Shown here piece after piece: positions 5,227-14,342 of a stretch of DNA of 64,000 nucleotides (positions within the stretch are counted from its first letter, which is position 1; every line of letters begins with the position of its first letter). Where the stretch lies: NCBI RefSeq assembly GCF_001273845.1, contig NZ_JHBW01000087.1, forward strand, positions 558,001 to 622,000, in the 5' to 3' direction. A model generated the notes under the pieces. The model searched no databases and was not told the origin of the DNA. It saw only the letters and a list, made by a program, of their open reading frames with translations. Position numbers and translations under genes: made by a program. The stretch is from Leucobacter musarum subsp. musarum. GTDB lineage: Bacteria; Actinomycetota; Actinomycetes; Actinomycetales; Microbacteriaceae.

Positions 5227-6432
5227 TCAGTTCGTAACGGCGACGAGCTCGCTCGTCACACCGAGGAGTTCGATCTGCGCGTCGTCGCCCTTGCTGGGAA
5301 CGAAGAAGAGCATCTGGTGAGCGACCTGCTGCACCAGCTTCTCCTGCTCGCCTTCGAGGCCAGACAGAGCGGTGATCGCGTCTTGCGCCTGCGGCTTGTA
5401 GCGACCACCGGCCGCGTCGACGATCTGCTCGTCGATCACCGTCGTCGCGACCAGCGCGCCGCCGGCGCCCGTCGACAGCGCGACTACGGGTGCGTCGCCC
5501 TGACGGGCGAGCGCCGAGTACTTCATGGTCTGGCCCTTCTCGTCGGACTTCGCCTGGGCCGCCGCAGCACGTGCCTGCCCATAGTTCTCGAGAATGGTGT
5601 CTCCGTCGAGGTCGAACGATGCGGCTTCGGGAGCCGCCGTTCCGTTCTGCAGCACCGCGGCGTAGGCCGCGCCCACTTGATCAGGCGGAAGCACCAGGGT
5701 CGAAATGTCGTTCGCCAGCAGTGCCGTGCCGTCTTTCGCCGGAGCCGCCTGCGGCATGGAGATGCCGCCGCGCAACGCAATCACTCGGGAGACCTGAAAA
5801 TTCTCGTGCGGTGACTCCTGAGTCAGAATCATCGCCAACGAAGGCGATGTCTTCTCTTCCGATGCGCTGGCGTCGGCATCGGCGCCCTCCGCACCTTCGG
5901 CGCTCGCGTCAGCCGTACCATCGGCTGCCGCATCGGCCGTCGTCTGACCGGACGTCGAGGCCACCGTCACAAAGACCGTGCGGGGCCAAGACTCGGTGCT
6001 CTGCACCAGCGCGTAATCGAGTTCGTCATCCGTGATTCGTGGCGGGACGACCGCGTAGTCGGGTACCGCTGCGCGAATCGCGTAATTCGCCGTGCGTTGT
6101 GCGAGCGCGTCGTCGACGAACCGAGCATCAAGCGCCGTCGCGTCGAGTGCATCATCGCCAGCATTTGCCGCTACTGAGACCTGCTCGACGATGCGGTGCA
6201 ACTGGCCTTCGTTCACCGGCACGGGAGCGATCGACGACGACTGCTCAGTGGGCGTCGGCTCCGGATCCTGCGCTGCGGCCCCACCGATCTGCGGCCAATA
6301 CTCGGCGGAGCACCCCGAGAGTCCGAGCACCATCGCGAGACCGATGACCGGCACCCAGCGCCGCAGGTGACGCCCCGTCTTGTGGTTGCCTCGTGCTGCG
6401 ACCGATGCCTGCCGTTGCTGCGACTCGTGCAT
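5227..6432 (-). CDS. lipoprotein of unknown function
   Basis: 401 residues. Basic N-terminus, hydrophobic segment and lipobox LSGC, then a Pro/Thr/Ser-rich spacer, so it should be a lipid-anchored exported protein. The interior has a long acidic Ala/Asp/Ser/Glu-rich low-complexity insert, roughly residues 165-190. I do not recognise a catalytic motif. The ATG at 6432 overlaps the TGA of the upstream membrane-protein gene by one base and has GGAGG about 9 bp upstream, so I prefer it to the GTG one codon earlier. Tight coupling to the upstream gene suggests the two products work together at the outer face of the membrane. Confidence 0.75.
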   Translation of the reverse strand: MHESQQRQASVAARGNHKTGRHLRRWVPVIGLAMVLGLSGCSAEYWPQIGGAAAQDPEPTPTEQSSSIAPVPVNEGQLHRIVEQVSVAANAGDDALDATALDARFVDDALAQRTANYAIRAAVPDYAVVPPRITDDELDYALVQSTESWPRTVFVTVASTSGQTTADAAADGTADASAEGAEGADADASASEEKTSPSLAMILTQESPHENFQVSRVIALRGGISMPQAAPAKDGTALLANDISTLVLPPDQVGAAYAAVLQNGTAAPEAASFDLDGDTILENYGQARAAAAQAKSDEKGQTMKYSALARQGDAPVVALSTGAGGALVATTVIDEQIVDAAGGRYKPQAQDAITALSGLEGEQEKLVQQVAHQMLFFVPSKGDDAQIELLGVTSELVAVTN

Positions 6433-7232
6433 CACTTCTGCCCTCCAGCCGTCTGCGAATTCGTATCGGGTGCGCCGCTCGCGCTCGCGCTGCGGCGACC
6501 TCGCCCTCCGAACGCGTTGCGAATGCCCTGCAACGGACCCCGACGACCGCGACGTGGCCCGAGGCCCCGGCGATCGTGGTCGACCGCAAGCAGATAGAGG
6601 ACCGCACCGACGATCGCCAGCAGAGCACCTCCGGCCAAGAAGGGCCCGGCCAGAGGGGTACTGCGATCCTGCACCCAGACCAGCGAGAGCTCGCTGGGAA
6701 TCGGGTCCGTTCCATTCGTCGCGATGATCACGGACTGGTCTTTCGCGAGTGCCACCGGAACACGCAGGGTCTCGTTCTCCGTGCCGTTGCCCGCGTCATC
6801 GATCGAACGCGACTCGAGCCACAAGTCGCTGCCGCGCGGGTCGAGCCCAGCTGAGTCGGGCTCAGTCGAGGCCGCATCATCCGTACCCGCGGTCGGCGCA
6901 TCGCTGACCGCCGCGGGAATCAACGCACTCAGCAACCGCTGCGAGCGCTGGTCGACTGACAGTTCAGCATGCGGAAATGCGTCGACCCAGGCTTCGACAT
7001 CGCGCGTCATCGCCGTGGCCACAAAGGCATCTTGGCCGGAGACGACCACGTTCGCCTGGCCCGGAAGCTTGGTGAATTCAGACCCGTTGACGACCGCGAA
7101 CGGCGACTCCGACTGCGTGTCGACCGGAAAGCTGATCTCTGCGGGGCCGGCGAGAAAGGTGCGCTGCCCGAGTCCCAGAAGTATGAGCACGCCGGAGACC
7201 ACCAGCACTGCAATCGCTACCGCATGTCGCAC
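6432..7232 (-). CDS. membrane protein of unknown function (two membrane segments)
   Basis: 266 residues. One N-terminal membrane segment (about residues 3-20) and one near residue 200 flank an extracytoplasmic domain of about 170 residues. A cytoplasmic tail rich in Arg and Gly ends in a Ser/Gln-rich stretch. No enzyme motif is visible. The GTG at 7232 is preceded by GAGGAG at good spacing; a longer reading frame to 7295 lacks a ribosome-binding site and adds Cys/Arg-rich residues that look non-coding. Translationally coupled (TGATG) to the downstream lipoprotein gene. Both look like conserved hypotheticals of Microbacteriaceae, an impression not checked by search. Confidence 0.75.
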   Translation of the reverse strand: MRHAVAIAVLVVSGVLILLGLGQRTFLAGPAEISFPVDTQSESPFAVVNGSEFTKLPGQANVVVSGQDAFVATAMTRDVEAWVDAFPHAELSVDQRSQRLLSALIPAAVSDAPTAGTDDAASTEPDSAGLDPRGSDLWLESRSIDDAGNGTENETLRVPVALAKDQSVIIATNGTDPIPSELSLVWVQDRSTPLAGPFLAGGALLAIVGAVLYLLAVDHDRRGLGPRRGRRGPLQGIRNAFGGRGRRSASASGAPDTNSQTAGGQK

Positions 7233-7497
7233 GGGAACTCCTCTACATTGGCATCGGTTCTCGCGAGCGCGGCAACAGCCCCACCGCCCGAACACGATTC
7301 TTCAACCTGCAACGCTACCGGAGCTTCCCTGGGTTGGCATGAACACTTCACCAGAAAGCGCACACGCAGGCGTGTTTCATGACGAATCGGCCCGGCCCGC
7401 ACACCCCCTCGTACGCTATCGTTGGGAAGCAATTCTGTACGCGCTGCGACCCGGTTTCGGGAGTGCGACGTCTCGACACCCAGACACCGGAGGGCCC

Positions 7498-10428
7498 GTG
7501 TCCGAACCAGCCCAGCCTTTCACCCCTGCGTTCCGCGGATACAACCGCGACGAGGTCGACGAACGCGTCGGCGCGCTGACCGGCCATATCTCGACGCTGC
7601 AGGCCCACATCGAAGCCTTGCAGACCGCGCATCAGCAGGTATCGCACACCGGCGAACAGCAGCGGCAGCTCATCTCGGACCTGCAGGAGCAGGTTGCCGA
7701 ACTCGGTGCCTCGGGTTACTCGGGTCTCGGTCTTCGCGTCGAGAAAAGTCTGCAGGTCGCCGAAGATCACGCGCAGCGACTCATGGCTCAGGCCGACCTC
7801 GATGCCGAAAAACTGCGTCGTGACTCAGAGGCGGAAGCGCAGCGGGTACTGACGCAGGCGCAGCAGCGGGCCGATGAGCAGATGACATCGGCGTCCGAGC
7901 AGGCCGAGATCATCTTGACCGGAGCGCGCAACGACGTCGCCACGCAGAGCGCGGCAGCCGAGGCCGAGCGTGCGCGTCTGCTCGACGAAGCTCGGCGCGA
8001 GGCAGAGCTCACACGTGCCGCAGTCGATCGCGAGACCGTCTCGGCACGCGAGACCGCGCACCGGGAGGCCCAAGCCGCCATCGCGGCCGCGCAGGCCGAG
8101 GCCGACCGACTGACGTCTGAGGCGCAGGCCGCGGCGCTCGAACTGCGAACCCAGACCGAGGCTCAGGCGGAGTCATTCGCCCGTCAGCGAGCAGAGAGCG
8201 AGCGCGAGGCAGAGCTCGAGCGCTGCCGCCTCGTGCAAGACGGTGAGCGGGCCCGCGCAGAATTCGAGGCACGACGCCAACGCGAGGAAGCGGAACTCGA
8301 GGAGCGATTCACCGAGCAGCAGCGCGCGCTCGAGGCAGACTTCGACGCACGTCGACGCGCCCTCACCGCTGAAGAGGAGACCCTGCGCGGCCGCATCGCG
8401 CAGGAGCGCATGGAGCACGACACCGCGATCGCGCAGGAACGGCGCGAGCAGACGCAGCGCATCGCCGCCGAAGTGCAGGCGCATAGTGATCGCATCGCGC
8501 AGGAGCGCGCCGAGCACGAGGCCACGATCGAACGCGAGCGCGCTGCGCTCTCCGAGGAGCTCAGCACGCTCGCAACGCAAGCTGAGCGCGAGCGGGAACG
8601 CGCCGACAGCATCGCGTCCGAAGATCGCGAAGCCGCAGCGACACGCCTCACCGCCGACCTGGCGGAGCAGCGTAGCGCGCACGAGACTGCGATCGAGCGC
8701 GAAGCGGCAGCGCACCGCGACGCGCTTGGCCTGCAGCGCGACACGCAAGACGCCGCACTCGCGGAAGAACTCGCGCAGCATCGCGCACTGATCGCGCGCG
8801 AGCGCGACGAGCACGACACCGCAATCGGGGCCGAGCGCGTGTCGCACGAGGCCCGTTTGCGTGACGAGCGGGATCGCCAGGAGGTGCGACTCTCCGACGA
8901 GTTGGCAGCGCATGTCTCACGCATCGCGCAAGAGCGCGAAGCGCACGTGACCGCTCTCACAAACGAACGGGAGGCGCATGACACCGCCCTCTCTGCGGAA
9001 CGCACAACGCACGAGTCATCGATCGCCGAAGAACGGCGGGCGCATGAAGAAGCCATCAGCGGTGAACGCGCAGATCACGACGCGGCACTCACCGATGAAC
9101 GTCAGGCGCACGAGTCGCAGATCACCGCAGAGCGCGAGGCGTGGGCCACCGAGCAGACCGACCAGCGCGACCAGCTCAATCGCGAGCTCGCCGCGGCGAC
9201 GGAGGCGCACGAGGCGCGTATTGCCTCAGAACTCGCGGCTCACGCCGAGAAACTCGGTGCGGACCTGGCGGAGCATCAGGACCGAGTGATTTCGGAGTGG
9301 GACGAACACCGCATTCGCATCGCCGATGAGCTCGCCGCTCATGAGCGCAGCGTCGCAGATGCGCGCGCCACGCAGCAGCGCGAGCACGAGCGCGCGGAAG
9401 CCGATCACGCGGCACGGATCTCTGATGAAAGTACTGTGCACGCCGAACGACTCTCGGCTGCGCGCCACGAGCACGAGCAGCGCATCGCCGACGAAGCCGC
9501 AGCCGCAGAGGAGCGGCTTCGCATCGCCCGTGATGAGGCAGCATCGGCACTTGCCATCGAGCGAGAGTCGCTAGAGCTGCGCATCGAGCGCGATCGCGCG
9601 AAGCTCGATGACGACCTGCAGCGTGAGCGCACAGAGCAGGAGCGCACACTCGCGGCTGCCGCCGAACAACACGCCGCCGATCTCGCTCGCGAGCGTGATG
9701 AGCGCATCGCAGCGAGCGAGCGCGAAGCAGCCGCACTCCGTGCATCGGTCACCGAAGAAACCGATCTGCTGCGCGTCGAGACGCTGGCCGAACTCGCGGA
9801 ACACCGCCACACCGAAGAGACGAGCCTTGCGCAGCTGCGTGCCGATACCGAAGACGCCGTGCGCCAGATGACCGAGCGAATCGAGACCGAGAGCGCTGCG
9901 TTCGCAACGTCGGCGGCTCAACAGCGCGAGTCGCTCGAGCACGACCTCGCCGAACGCCAGCGCACCGCCGCAGAGGCCGCGCAGCGCGAGCTCGATGCGA
10001 CTCGCGCCGAACTCGCCGAACTCCGCATGCAGCTCGACGCTGCTCGCGAGGAGTACGAGCGGCTCAGTGCCGACGCGACGCAAGACGCACGCCAGGTGCG
10101 CGCATCGGCCGAGCGTCACGCCGCTGACATTGTGCTCGAGGCCGAACGGCGCGCACAGACCACCTTCGCTTCCGCGGAAGATCGCGCGACGAAGGTGCTC
10201 GCGGCCGCAGAAGACCGCATGACGCAACTGAAGGTCGAGCGCGGTGCCGTGGCCCGCTACTTCGAGAGCCTCGGCGAGGTCATCACGAACGCGCAGAAGA
10301 TGAGCACGGTCGCGGGTCGGCTCGTCGAGCAGCCGGTTGCCGAGTCGCTCCAGCAGGAGGATGCGGCGGCGAACACTTCCGAAGCCGCGGGCAACGCGCA
10401 GGCCGACGACGCAACGCCTCAGGGGTGA
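7498..10428 (+). CDS. giant hendecad coiled-coil protein with DivIVA-like N-terminus
   Basis: 976 residues. The N-terminus has the DivIVA/Wag31 membrane-curvature signature FRGYNRDEVDERV (about residues 12-24), a short coiled coil to about residue 70, and the motif GYSGLGLRVEKSL. From residue 82 to 914 the chain consists of 11-residue units without an insertion or deletion that I could find; typical units are RIAQERMEHDT, AISGERADHDA and RIADELAAHER. The C-terminus (915-976) is an ARYFESLGEV segment followed by an acidic, Ala-rich tail. The nearest functional analogy is the Scy/FilP-like polar scaffolds of Streptomyces; a cytoskeletal or polar scaffold role is inference. GTG at 7498 has GGAGG upstream; the open frame back to 6724 is not used. 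Confidence 0.88.
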   Translation: MSEPAQPFTPAFRGYNRDEVDERVGALTGHISTLQAHIEALQTAHQQVSHTGEQQRQLISDLQEQVAELGASGYSGLGLRVEKSLQVAEDHAQRLMAQADLDAEKLRRDSEAEAQRVLTQAQQRADEQMTSASEQAEIILTGARNDVATQSAAAEAERARLLDEARREAELTRAAVDRETVSARETAHREAQAAIAAAQAEADRLTSEAQAAALELRTQTEAQAESFARQRAESEREAELERCRLVQDGERARAEFEARRQREEAELEERFTEQQRALEADFDARRRALTAEEETLRGRIAQERMEHDTAIAQERREQTQRIAAEVQAHSDRIAQERAEHEATIERERAALSEELSTLATQAERERERADSIASEDREAAATRLTADLAEQRSAHETAIEREAAAHRDALGLQRDTQDAALAEELAQHRALIARERDEHDTAIGAERVSHEARLRDERDRQEVRLSDELAAHVSRIAQEREAHVTALTNEREAHDTALSAERTTHESSIAEERRAHEEAISGERADHDAALTDERQAHESQITAEREAWATEQTDQRDQLNRELAAATEAHEARIASELAAHAEKLGADLAEHQDRVISEWDEHRIRIADELAAHERSVADARATQQREHERAEADHAARISDESTVHAERLSAARHEHEQRIADEAAAAEERLRIARDEAASALAIERESLELRIERDRAKLDDDLQRERTEQERTLAAAAEQHAADLARERDERIAASEREAAALRASVTEETDLLRVETLAELAEHRHTEETSLAQLRADTEDAVRQMTERIETESAAFATSAAQQRESLEHDLAERQRTAAEAAQRELDATRAELAELRMQLDAAREEYERLSADATQDARQVRASAERHAADIVLEAERRAQTTFASAEDRATKVLAAAEDRMTQLKVERGAVARYFESLGEVITNAQKMSTVAGRLVEQPVAESLQQEDAAANTSEAAGNAQADDATPQG
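7741..10239 (+). repeat. about 75 tandem 33-bp codon repeats encoding hendecads
   Basis: Encodes residues 82-914 of the coiled-coil protein. Counting by hand from Arg299 gives 56 consecutive units of exactly 11 residues to residue 914, and about 20 more units in the same register back to residue 82. In the central part the loose consensus is [R/A]-[I/L]-x-x-E-R-x-x-H-[E/D]-x. The DNA has diverged between units, so this is an old protein-level repeat and not a fresh tandem duplication. Confidence 0.85.
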
Positions 10429-12083: not shown

Positions 12084-12749
12084 TCACCACCAGTGGTTTG
12101 CCGTCCAGAAGCTGTAGGCGGCGCTCCAGCTTCCGTACCGTCCCACCGCGTACCCGTTGGCCCAGGTGAGGTTATCGACCGGGTCGTACCCATTGCCCGG
12201 GACCTTGCTGCACGGCAACGCCTGAATGAGCCCGCACGCCCCAGAGCTCGCGTTTGTCGCGTTCGGATTCAGGCTGCTCTCGCGCTCAGCGATGTACACC
12301 ACATACGACCAGTCGGCTTCAGCGATTCCCGCTGCAGCCATCCACTCAGCCATCGACCCACCACCCGTGTACTTGGGTGGCGCACCGGCGCTCTCGGATG
12401 CCCCTAACGATTGTTCAGAACTTGCCGTTCCCGCGGCCTTCTCGGCCGCAGCCTTCTCCGCCGCTTTCGCAGCAGCCTCGGCTTCCTGCTTCTTGCGCAC
12501 TTCCTCAGGGTCGGGAAGTTCGACGACTCCGACGTTCGTGTACACGAGGTCTGCGTCAGCCGACGTATTCGGGGTGAATTCCTGATGGATCCGCTGTTGG
12601 AACGCCATCGCCTCAGCATCAGCCGGCGCGCTGGGCATCGCGAACGGAGCCACCACGGCCGCTCCCAAGAATCCGGCGACGGCGAGGCCGGCGACCGGAG
12701 CGCGCAAGCGGGTCCATCGCGAGAGGGGATTTCGGTTCAGTGCAGACAC
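12084..12749 (-). CDS. secreted lytic-transglycosylase-like protein
   Basis: 221 residues. N-terminal membrane segment/signal (about residues 15-38), an Ala/Glu/Lys-rich coiled spacer (about 75-105), then a lysozyme-like C-terminal domain: YIAERESSLNPNATN with the candidate catalytic Glu, SSGACGLIQ, and terminal GSWSAAYSFWTANHWW. This matches aggregation-promoting-factor/Rpf-like transglycosylases that cut peptidoglycan glycan chains. It starts with GTG; a TACAAT hexamer nine bases upstream suggests a very short leader. Confidence 0.82.
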   Translation of the reverse strand: MSALNRNPLSRWTRLRAPVAGLAVAGFLGAAVVAPFAMPSAPADAEAMAFQQRIHQEFTPNTSADADLVYTNVGVVELPDPEEVRKKQEAEAAAKAAEKAAAEKAAGTASSEQSLGASESAGAPPKYTGGGSMAEWMAAAGIAEADWSYVVYIAERESSLNPNATNASSGACGLIQALPCSKVPGNGYDPVDNLTWANGYAVGRYGSWSAAYSFWTANHWW

Positions 12750-12819: not shown

Positions 12820-13425
12820 TCATCGCGTCGCCAGGATCAGCTCGACGACACCGTCGAGCAGCGCGTCGACCTGTTCTTCGTCGTACCCGCGCCACTGAGA
12901 ATGAAATACCACATCACGAACTTCCGCCGGCTTCAGGCCGAGTTCGCGGCGCTCGAACATCTCCGAGACCCGATCGAGAAACGCATCGACCTGCGAGCGG
13001 CGGTAGCCGGTGGCGAAGAGACCACGGCGACGGAATCGCTTACCACGGGGCCGGTGGATCCGCCCCCGAACTTCGGAGAGCAGCTGGCGCGTTTCATCCC
13101 ACCAGGCGTCTTCACCTGCAGCGCGCACCCGCGCACGACGCTCGCGTTCGTAGAAGACCTCTTCGAGTCGGTCCATGGCCGCATCGACGTAGCGAGCCGC
13201 ATACCCTCCACGCTTCACCGGAAACGCCGTTCTACGAACCGATTCGGAGGTCATGGCTTCCGCGGACCCTGCCGCGGCCTCATAGGCGCTGCGTGCCGAC
13301 GAGAGGAACTGATCGACCTGTTCCTGCTGATACCCGAGCTGGGTTCCGGTGGCGAGGGGAAACGAGGTATGCACCCGTCCAGTCTGCACGGGCTCCTCGG
13401 CTGATCCCTGTGAACGACGGGCCAT
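12820..13425 (-). CDS. protein with four DivIVA-type motifs
   Basis: 201 residues carrying four copies of the short DivIVA N-terminal signature (glycine-tyrosine, four residues, Val-Asp): GYQQEQVDQFL, GYAARYVDAAM, GYRRSQVDAFL and GYDEEQVDALL. They are separated by charged helices. The full coiled-coil part of a true DivIVA is missing. ATG at 13425 shares one base with the cdsA stop (TGATG), so translation is coupled to phospholipid synthesis. A membrane-associated adaptor at poles or septum is plausible but unproven. Confidence 0.78.
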   Translation of the reverse strand: MARRSQGSAEEPVQTGRVHTSFPLATGTQLGYQQEQVDQFLSSARSAYEAAAGSAEAMTSESVRRTAFPVKRGGYAARYVDAAMDRLEEVFYERERRARVRAAGEDAWWDETRQLLSEVRGRIHRPRGKRFRRRGLFATGYRRSQVDAFLDRVSEMFERRELGLKPAEVRDVVFHSQWRGYDEEQVDALLDGVVELILATR

Positions 13426-14342
13426 CAGACCACCCCCAACATGAGCGCGACACCGTAGACGCCGACGGCAGAGGGCAGCAGTGAATCCAGGCGATCCAAG
13501 AAACCACCGTGGCCCGGAATCCAAGAACTCATGTCTTTCACACCCAGGTTTCGTTTGATCAGCGACTCGGTCAGGTCACCGCCGGTGGCCGTGAAGAGCA
13601 CCACCACGCCGATGATAACGCCGACCCACCAGGGTTGGTGCAACGCGAACACGGAGACCAGCACACCGGTTCCCGCAGCGACCACTGCGGCTCCAGCAAA
13701 CCCCTCCCAGGTCTTGTTCGGGCTGATGCGCGGCGTCATCTTATGCTTTCCGAACGACACCCCGGCGGCATAAGCGCCGACGTCGACCGATACGACGACC
13801 AGCACGAGCGCGAACACCCACCATTCGCCGTGTTCCGCAGCGACCAGCAGCACCGCAAACGAGGCGAGAAACGCCACGTAGACGATCGTGAAGAGCCCCG
13901 AGAACACATCGCGAACGACCGTCTTCGGAGGCGCCTCCCACGCCGGCACCAATCCTTCGATCAGTCGCCAGACGATGAGCACGACCGACCCGGCGAACAA
14001 GCCGAGCAGCATGCCTTGGGCCCCCCAGAACGCCGCGCCGCCGACGACGACGAGCCCGCCGACGACCACCCCGATGCGCGACACGCGCCGGCCCGCGACC
14101 CGAAACGCCGAAGCGAGTTCTACGAGTGCGATGGCGACCAGGGCAGCGACCAGCACGATGAATATCTGCTTGACCAGAAGCAGGCTCGCCAGGAAGATGC
14201 CGCCGAAGACCACACCCGACCCGATGGCGAAGACGAGATTGCGGCCCGCGCGCGCCTCAATGCGCGCGTTGGTCGCTTCGAGCTGCGCACGCGTCGATTC
14301 GATCGCCGTGCGCAGCTCGTCTCGCTTCTCCGAGCCGGCCAT
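13425..14342 (-). CDS. cdsA: phosphatidate cytidylyltransferase CdsA
   Basis: Makes CDP-diacylglycerol from phosphatidate and CTP, the branch point of phospholipid synthesis. 305 residues. A cytoplasmic coiled N-terminus (about 40 residues) is followed by multiple membrane helices. The family signature is clear: SPNKTWEG, GDLTESLIKR and the metal-binding PGHGGFLDRLDS near the C-terminus. Six bp follow frr, and one base overlaps the DivIVA-motif gene. Confidence 0.93.
   Translation of the reverse strand: MAGSEKRDELRTAIESTRAQLEATNARIEARAGRNLVFAIGSGVVFGGIFLASLLLVKQIFIVLVAALVAIALVELASAFRVAGRRVSRIGVVVGGLVVVGGAAFWGAQGMLLGLFAGSVVLIVWRLIEGLVPAWEAPPKTVVRDVFSGLFTIVYVAFLASFAVLLVAAEHGEWWVFALVLVVVSVDVGAYAAGVSFGKHKMTPRISPNKTWEGFAGAAVVAAGTGVLVSVFALHQPWWVGVIIGVVVLFTATGGDLTESLIKRNLGVKDMSSWIPGHGGFLDRLDSLLPSAVGVYGVALMLGVV

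Follow-up and report, generated by a model that had tools for sequence, protein, structure and literature searches.

INTRODUCTION

The closest described systems to the locus reported here are the coiled-coil scaffolds FilP, Scy and DivIVA/Wag31. FilP proteins form a family defined by a pair of N-terminal motifs, which open the first two coiled-coil segments; rods in this family vary in length, and three members make filaments in vitro (Bagchi 2008, accessible text of PMC2680258). A value of 265 coiled-coil residues is given for FilP in PMC6599971. Streptomyces FilP is graded toward the poles and is thought to help place DivIVA (accessible text of PMC9858780). The same text identifies FilP and Scy by a DivIVA-like head with RGYDxxEVD ahead of the coiled coil, and reports an Ala-rich type of hendecad core for both. 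It calls Scy almost entirely hendecad and describes it as having no N-terminal helix before RGYD and as restricted to Streptomyces. DivIVA-like heads on hendecad rods, with FilP and Scy proteins reaching more than 1,000 residues, are therefore already published in that source, and the suggestion of an earlier sequence-only reading that the architecture may be undescribed does not hold.

A literature search, which covered few subscription papers, returned no study of FilP in Leucobacter or Microbacteriaceae and no account of whole-hendecad length evolution or of a His-containing polar core. Here we describe a giant FilP-type gene of Leucobacter musarum subsp. musarum and compare it with its relatives in gene order, periodicity, core composition and rod length.

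RESULTS

Identification of a FilP-type protein

The window, which is the whole stretch of 64,000 nucleotides that was analyzed, contains a 976-residue reading frame for a giant coiled-coil protein of FilP type (7498..10428, +). The frame starts with a GTG at 7498, downstream of a GGAGGG at 7489–7494, and its start region is common to the orthologues. Promoter and terminator scans found neither. Residues 10 to 946 include zero prolines. This FilP-type protein is genuine, with an 11-residue repeat well beyond what chance would give.

The head (residues 1–72; 7498..7713, +) is DivIVA-like, with RGYNRDEVD at residues 13–21 and a helix up to residue 71. The first 125 residues alone match PF05103 at 32.2 bits (cut-off 28), and the full-length protein scores 17.4 bits, under the cut-off. 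An alignment was made of 34 heads, comprising that of the window protein and 33 chosen from the other 104 (L124 was omitted), and all 34 match PF05103 at E ≤ 0.01. When solved structures were searched with a profile of these aligned heads, the best matches were GpsB (4ug3, E 2.1e-6) and DivIVA (2wuj, E 4.4e-6), so the DivIVA-like head proposed from the sequence is confirmed. An AlphaFold model of residues 1–150 (mean pLDDT 81, pTM 0.35) has helices at 17–71 and 74–149. A phmmer match of the whole protein to "Minor spike protein H" among solved structures (E 0.0036) is weak and was dismissed as coiled-coil noise.

After the helix break at 72–73 in the model, the motif YSGLGLRVE (residues 74–82; 7717..7743, +) marks the start of a second coiled-coil segment. 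In the head alignment, both RGYNRDEVD and YSGLGLRVE align with two Streptomyces-type FilP proteins, one of them encoded next to a Scy-type gene. We read the two as the motif pair described in the accessible text of PMC2680258. The head also carries the RGYDxxEVD signature, with N in place of D after RGY, and the rod contains hendecads, as is characteristic of the FilP/Scy group. By these features, the window protein belongs to the FilP family (FilP/Scy group) and is a predicted cytoskeletal scaffold of Leucobacter.

Comparison with FilP, Scy, and DivIVA

Both N-terminal motifs, the DivIVA-like head, and a hendecad-containing rod are shared with Streptomyces coelicolor FilP (SCO5396) and the family of Bagchi 2008. 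The window protein differs from Streptomyces FilP in its polar, His-containing central core, in its gene neighbors, and in a rod of ~830 residues, compared to ~177 in the one Streptomyces-type FilP measured by the same rough cut. Scy is alike in its size (>1,000 residues), in an RGY motif near the start, and in strong 11-residue self-similarity, but the rod period differs. The one Scy-type protein compared (L117, encoded beside FilP in a genome taken as Streptomyces-like from this gene pair) has a power of 95.8 at 51/14 versus 2.6 at 11/3, whereas the window rod has 8.7 and 16.4, respectively, and peaks near 11/3, at 3.660 (power 21.8). Membership in Scy was rejected on this difference in period, and the contrast with Scy-type scaffolds drawn in the sequence-only reading is upheld. 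Walshaw, in 2010, is said to have made the 51/14 periodicity defining for Scy. The better fit of L117 to 51/14 than to a hendecad contrasts with the description of Scy in the accessible text of PMC9858780. The NCBIfam model growth_prot_Scy (NF041483) gave no match at E ≤ 1 in a scan of the full-length window protein; at E ≤ 0.01, it recognizes 9 of the 34 heads in the alignment, not including that of the window protein. DivIVA/Wag31 shares the head domain, but membership was rejected because the DivIVA_Wag31 equivalog model gives just 20.3 bits, far short of its cut-off of 260. The genome carries a separate and better PF05103 match (G000:C116:41693, 43.5 bits).

Periodicity and segments of the rod

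Sequence self-identity over residues 82–914 is 0.24 at lag 11, versus ~0.11 at other lags, and is also raised at lags 22, 33, 44, and 55. The power of large apolar residues (ILVMF) peaks at 3.665 residues with a value of 36.0, compared to a highest value of 10.7 among 500 shuffles, and is 0.8 at 7/2. The proposal of a long, mostly hendecad rod is upheld. Kyte-Doolittle hydropathy gives only a modest signal at 3.66 (12.8 versus a shuffle maximum of 10.2), smaller than the 11/2 harmonic (16.1). Hydropathy power at 11/3 is only 0.1–1.3 in 66-residue windows across residues 369–588 because most core positions are polar there.

Since the central signal of the single sequence is weak in hydropathy, orthologues were averaged (38 sequences, including that of the window). 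Averaged hydropathy is equally weak in 369–588, with a wandering phase, and a steady central phase is given only by a weighting that counts large apolar residues and, in part, Ala. With this weighting, the core phase is ~255–275 degrees over residues 53–239, ~180–223 over 251–833, and ~117–144 from ~823, with steps located near residues 235–260 and 820–860. Residues 889–943 form a heptad stretch in the same set (power 8.3 at 7/2 versus 0.2 at 11/3). A full-length AlphaFold model of the single chain is weak (mean pLDDT 65, pTM 0.30) and mostly helical, with breaks at 69–79, 243–255, 407–416, and 747–762; the break at 243–255 coincides with the phase step near residue 250.

Under the strictest of three skip penalties, a register search assigned residues 264–835 to a single register. 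With the middle penalty, a doubtful patch appears at 351–386, and the loosest gives 33 changes. Units scoring below zero in register number 29 of 75, of which 7 lie within 264–835, and register changes outside this range are less reliable because the profile was trained on rod middles. Taken together, the phase steps and the register search support ~52 consecutive hendecads, not the ~76 counted earlier. The unbroken hendecad series once placed at 82–914 is therefore retained for 264–835, with flanks in other core phases and a heptad at 889–943, and the rod as a whole is not uniform. Likewise, the sharp 11/3 signal expected without drift was recovered in the lag-11 identity and the ILVMF peak, but is modest in hydropathy and drifts in phase over 82–914.

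The N-terminal rod (residues ~82–239; 7741..8214, +) is made of Ala-rich hendecads with an Ala/Leu/Ala core, as seen in the position table and the phase. In the central rod (residues ~264–835; 8287..10002, +), the position table and the strictest search agree on one hendecad register of ~52 units. The C-terminal rod (residues ~836–925; 10003..10272, +) has a shifted core phase and ends in a conserved element, VERGAVARYFESL (913–925), which overlaps the heptad stretch (residues ~889–943; 10162..10326, +) identified from 7/2 power in the 38 sequences. The remaining tail (residues 941–976; 10318..10425, +) is variable in length across the family and of low confidence, and pLDDT is <50 over 933–945 and 947–973.

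Gene order and occurrence

Matches were present in 46 of 60 relatives searched, made up of the genome itself, 36/36 genomes of the same genus, and 9/23 of the same order (14/23 had no match). The sequence-only reading had proposed looking for the architecture in Microbacteriaceae. Of 120 genomes drawn from this family, 97 have a match and 23 have none. Rod length is not conserved. All 21 named loci are from Leucobacter. The genomes compared are a chosen part of those with a match. The order frr-cdsA-PolyDIV-SLT-...-filP-membrane protein-lipoprotein-thioredoxin/TPR is kept in 17 of the 21 named Leucobacter loci (the other four are truncated) and in 12/12 loci chosen from 94 genomes of other genera with a match. 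Proteins from these 12 loci range from short to giant. The shared gene order combined with varied protein size indicates one orthologous gene with rods of very different length.

Several neighboring genes, all on the minus strand, were characterized. A PolyDIV-type protein (12820–13524; TIGR03543, 173.5 bits, cut-off 154.2) lies 2.4 kb from filP, and this proximity recurs in the same 17 Leucobacter and 12 other-genus loci; the accessible text of PMC9858780 gives the neighbor of PolyDIV as UMP kinase, not FilP. Beside it, and conserved in this position, 12084–12749 encodes a domain like the C terminus of an aggregation-promoting factor (NF052397, 83.9 bits, cut-off 40) with an SLT match (27.9 bits, cut-off 21.3). 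The genes at 6432–7295 and 5227–6435 are divergent from filP, have a conserved place beside it, and gave no Pfam match at E ≤ 0.001. The latter resembles the SCO2278 lipoprotein family only weakly, at 32.8 bits against a cut-off of 210.

A polar, His-containing central core

The central core is unusual, with one Ile or Leu per 11 residues and Arg, Glu, and His at the remaining core positions. Each block from 236 to 740 has ILVMF at one hendecad position in 78%–100% of its units, and 25 of 32 central-rod His residues share one hendecad position. In 49 proteins that form one branch of the orthologue tree (support 98), His makes up a fraction of 0.023–0.054 of the rod (median 0.040), compared to 0.001–0.021 (median 0.011) in the other 37. 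Because the latter include 13 proteins with rods of at least 600 residues, long rods occur both with and without the His pattern. On the tree, rods must have crossed the 700-residue mark at least six times. Equally long FilP-type rods were also observed in other Microbacteriaceae (L128, L130, L131, L132, and L133), with a lag-11 identity of 0.37–0.42 and little His (0.001–0.016); long rods thus occur with different units.

Rod length changes mostly in multiples of 11

Rod length was measured as the distance from the GLG motif to the C-terminal element. Five sequences were removed beforehand: the truncated L101 and the fragments or incomplete frames L078b, L105b, L117b, and L122b, of which L117b belongs to the Scy-type frame. 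Merging identical sequences and dropping L126, which is contained in another, left 105 proteins, and excluding 19 without the C-terminal anchor left 86. Some script-set starts are probably too far downstream (MRGY proteins), which does not affect anchor distances.

The 86 orthologues span anchor distances of 297 to 1,063 residues. The 50 distinct distances fall into only 4 of the 11 classes modulo 11 (25, 21, 3, and 1 distances) and are spread modulo 7, 8, 10, and 12. As a comparison, the 44 distinct tail lengths occupy all 11 classes modulo 11. A tree of the 86 proteins has at least 66 length changes versus only five changes of modulo-11 class, both counts being parsimony minima on a tree built by a quick method with 37 of 83 inner branches open. 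It contains one very long branch, L135, which is the sole member of class 6. The three main classes are 4 or 7 residues apart, and coiled coils tolerate steps of 4 or 7 residues.

Pairwise gaps were counted in 46 proteins having both GLGLRVE and the anchor, using a high gap-opening cost. All 93 gaps in 65 pairs with ≥70% identity, which share proteins and hence are non-independent, are multiples of 11; among the 30 closest pairs listed, they fall within the middle of the rod, between alignment positions 407 and 588. At the DNA level, 12 chosen pairs have 18 gaps, each of them a multiple of 33. Across all 1,035 pairs, only 2,538 of 4,271 gaps are multiples of 11. From these comparisons, the rod seems to have grown and shrunk in evolution almost only by whole 11-residue steps.

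DISCUSSION

We consider it likely that this gene encodes a giant Microbacteriaceae FilP in which the head and the C-terminal element provide the contacts for assembly, with the central rod as a spacer that varies by whole hendecads. The conserved head and C-terminal element would act as the contacts of an intermediate-filament-like scaffold of dimers, with the rod joining them. Eleven residues make three full helical turns, so gain or loss of a whole hendecad would lengthen the spacer and leave its ends unrotated; length would then be free to vary, but in whole hendecads. By analogy, a rod of this size (an estimated ~120 nm) may give a wider lattice, and a polar location like that of Streptomyces FilP would be expected. 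The central core is largely polar, and a stable dimer is not assured there.

The long, proline-free rod with conserved ends on both sides would also suit a fixed-length molecular ruler or tether in which rod length is the functional quantity. Such a ruler should conserve its length, and the anchor distances instead shift between close relatives and cover the full range reported above. This argues against the septal or polar ruler envisaged in the sequence-only reading and makes a strict ruler highly improbable. It is unlikely, if somewhat less so, that a charged single alpha-helix makes up most of the central block, with pairing confined to the head, the N-terminal rod, and the C-terminal element. 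Residues 401–620 have an excess of oppositely charged i, i+4 pairs in both orders (acid-to-base z 3.8, base-to-acid z 3.1), and the weak hydropathy periodicity over 369–588, in the window protein and the 38-sequence average alike, fits a single helix. A single helix, however, needs no apolar stripe of the kind found in every block between 236 and 740, and the averaged apolar signal in the center, weak as it is, stays at ~3.65–3.71 with a constant phase.

Neutral expansion and contraction of 33-bp DNA units, with the hendecad as a by-product, would explain the arrays of 33, 66, 99, and 132 bp in the three longer relatives scanned and the 3 of 18 extra units that are 85%–91% identical to a neighboring unit. 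In the window gene, Tandem Repeats Finder (TRF) reports only 2.3 copies at 33 bp, and this array fails to explain the repeat because neighboring units do not share codons beyond expectation: where a residue recurs one unit away, its codon recurs as well in 49% of cases versus 45% expected. The repeat is thus kept at the protein level, and recent DNA expansion was ruled out as its source in the window protein. Conserved ends and core positions are likewise left unexplained, though exchange may supply variation, and we regard a purely DNA-level origin as very unlikely. Unequal exchange among 33-bp units would, without any selection, also yield multiples of 11. Given this bias, the non-independent close pairs, and the gaps across all pairs, the whole-hendecad steps may reflect register selection, mutational bias, or both. 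It is possible, though doubtful, that the spacer is phase-locked, with selection on head/tail register and length drift in 11-residue steps producing a species-set mesh, and that the His core of the Leucobacter clade responds to pH or a ligand.

Whole-hendecad length evolution is new in this analysis. For the giant FilP with a spacer rod that we favor, the gene also supplies long polar-core hendecad sequences, a poorly explored type of coiled coil. A single syntenic gene, with head and tail conserved, comes in dozens of natural rod lengths between ~300 and >1,000 residues. This natural series lends itself to experiments on how the length of a rod sets spacing in an intermediate-filament-like lattice, and on whether coiled coils can change length solely by register-keeping steps.
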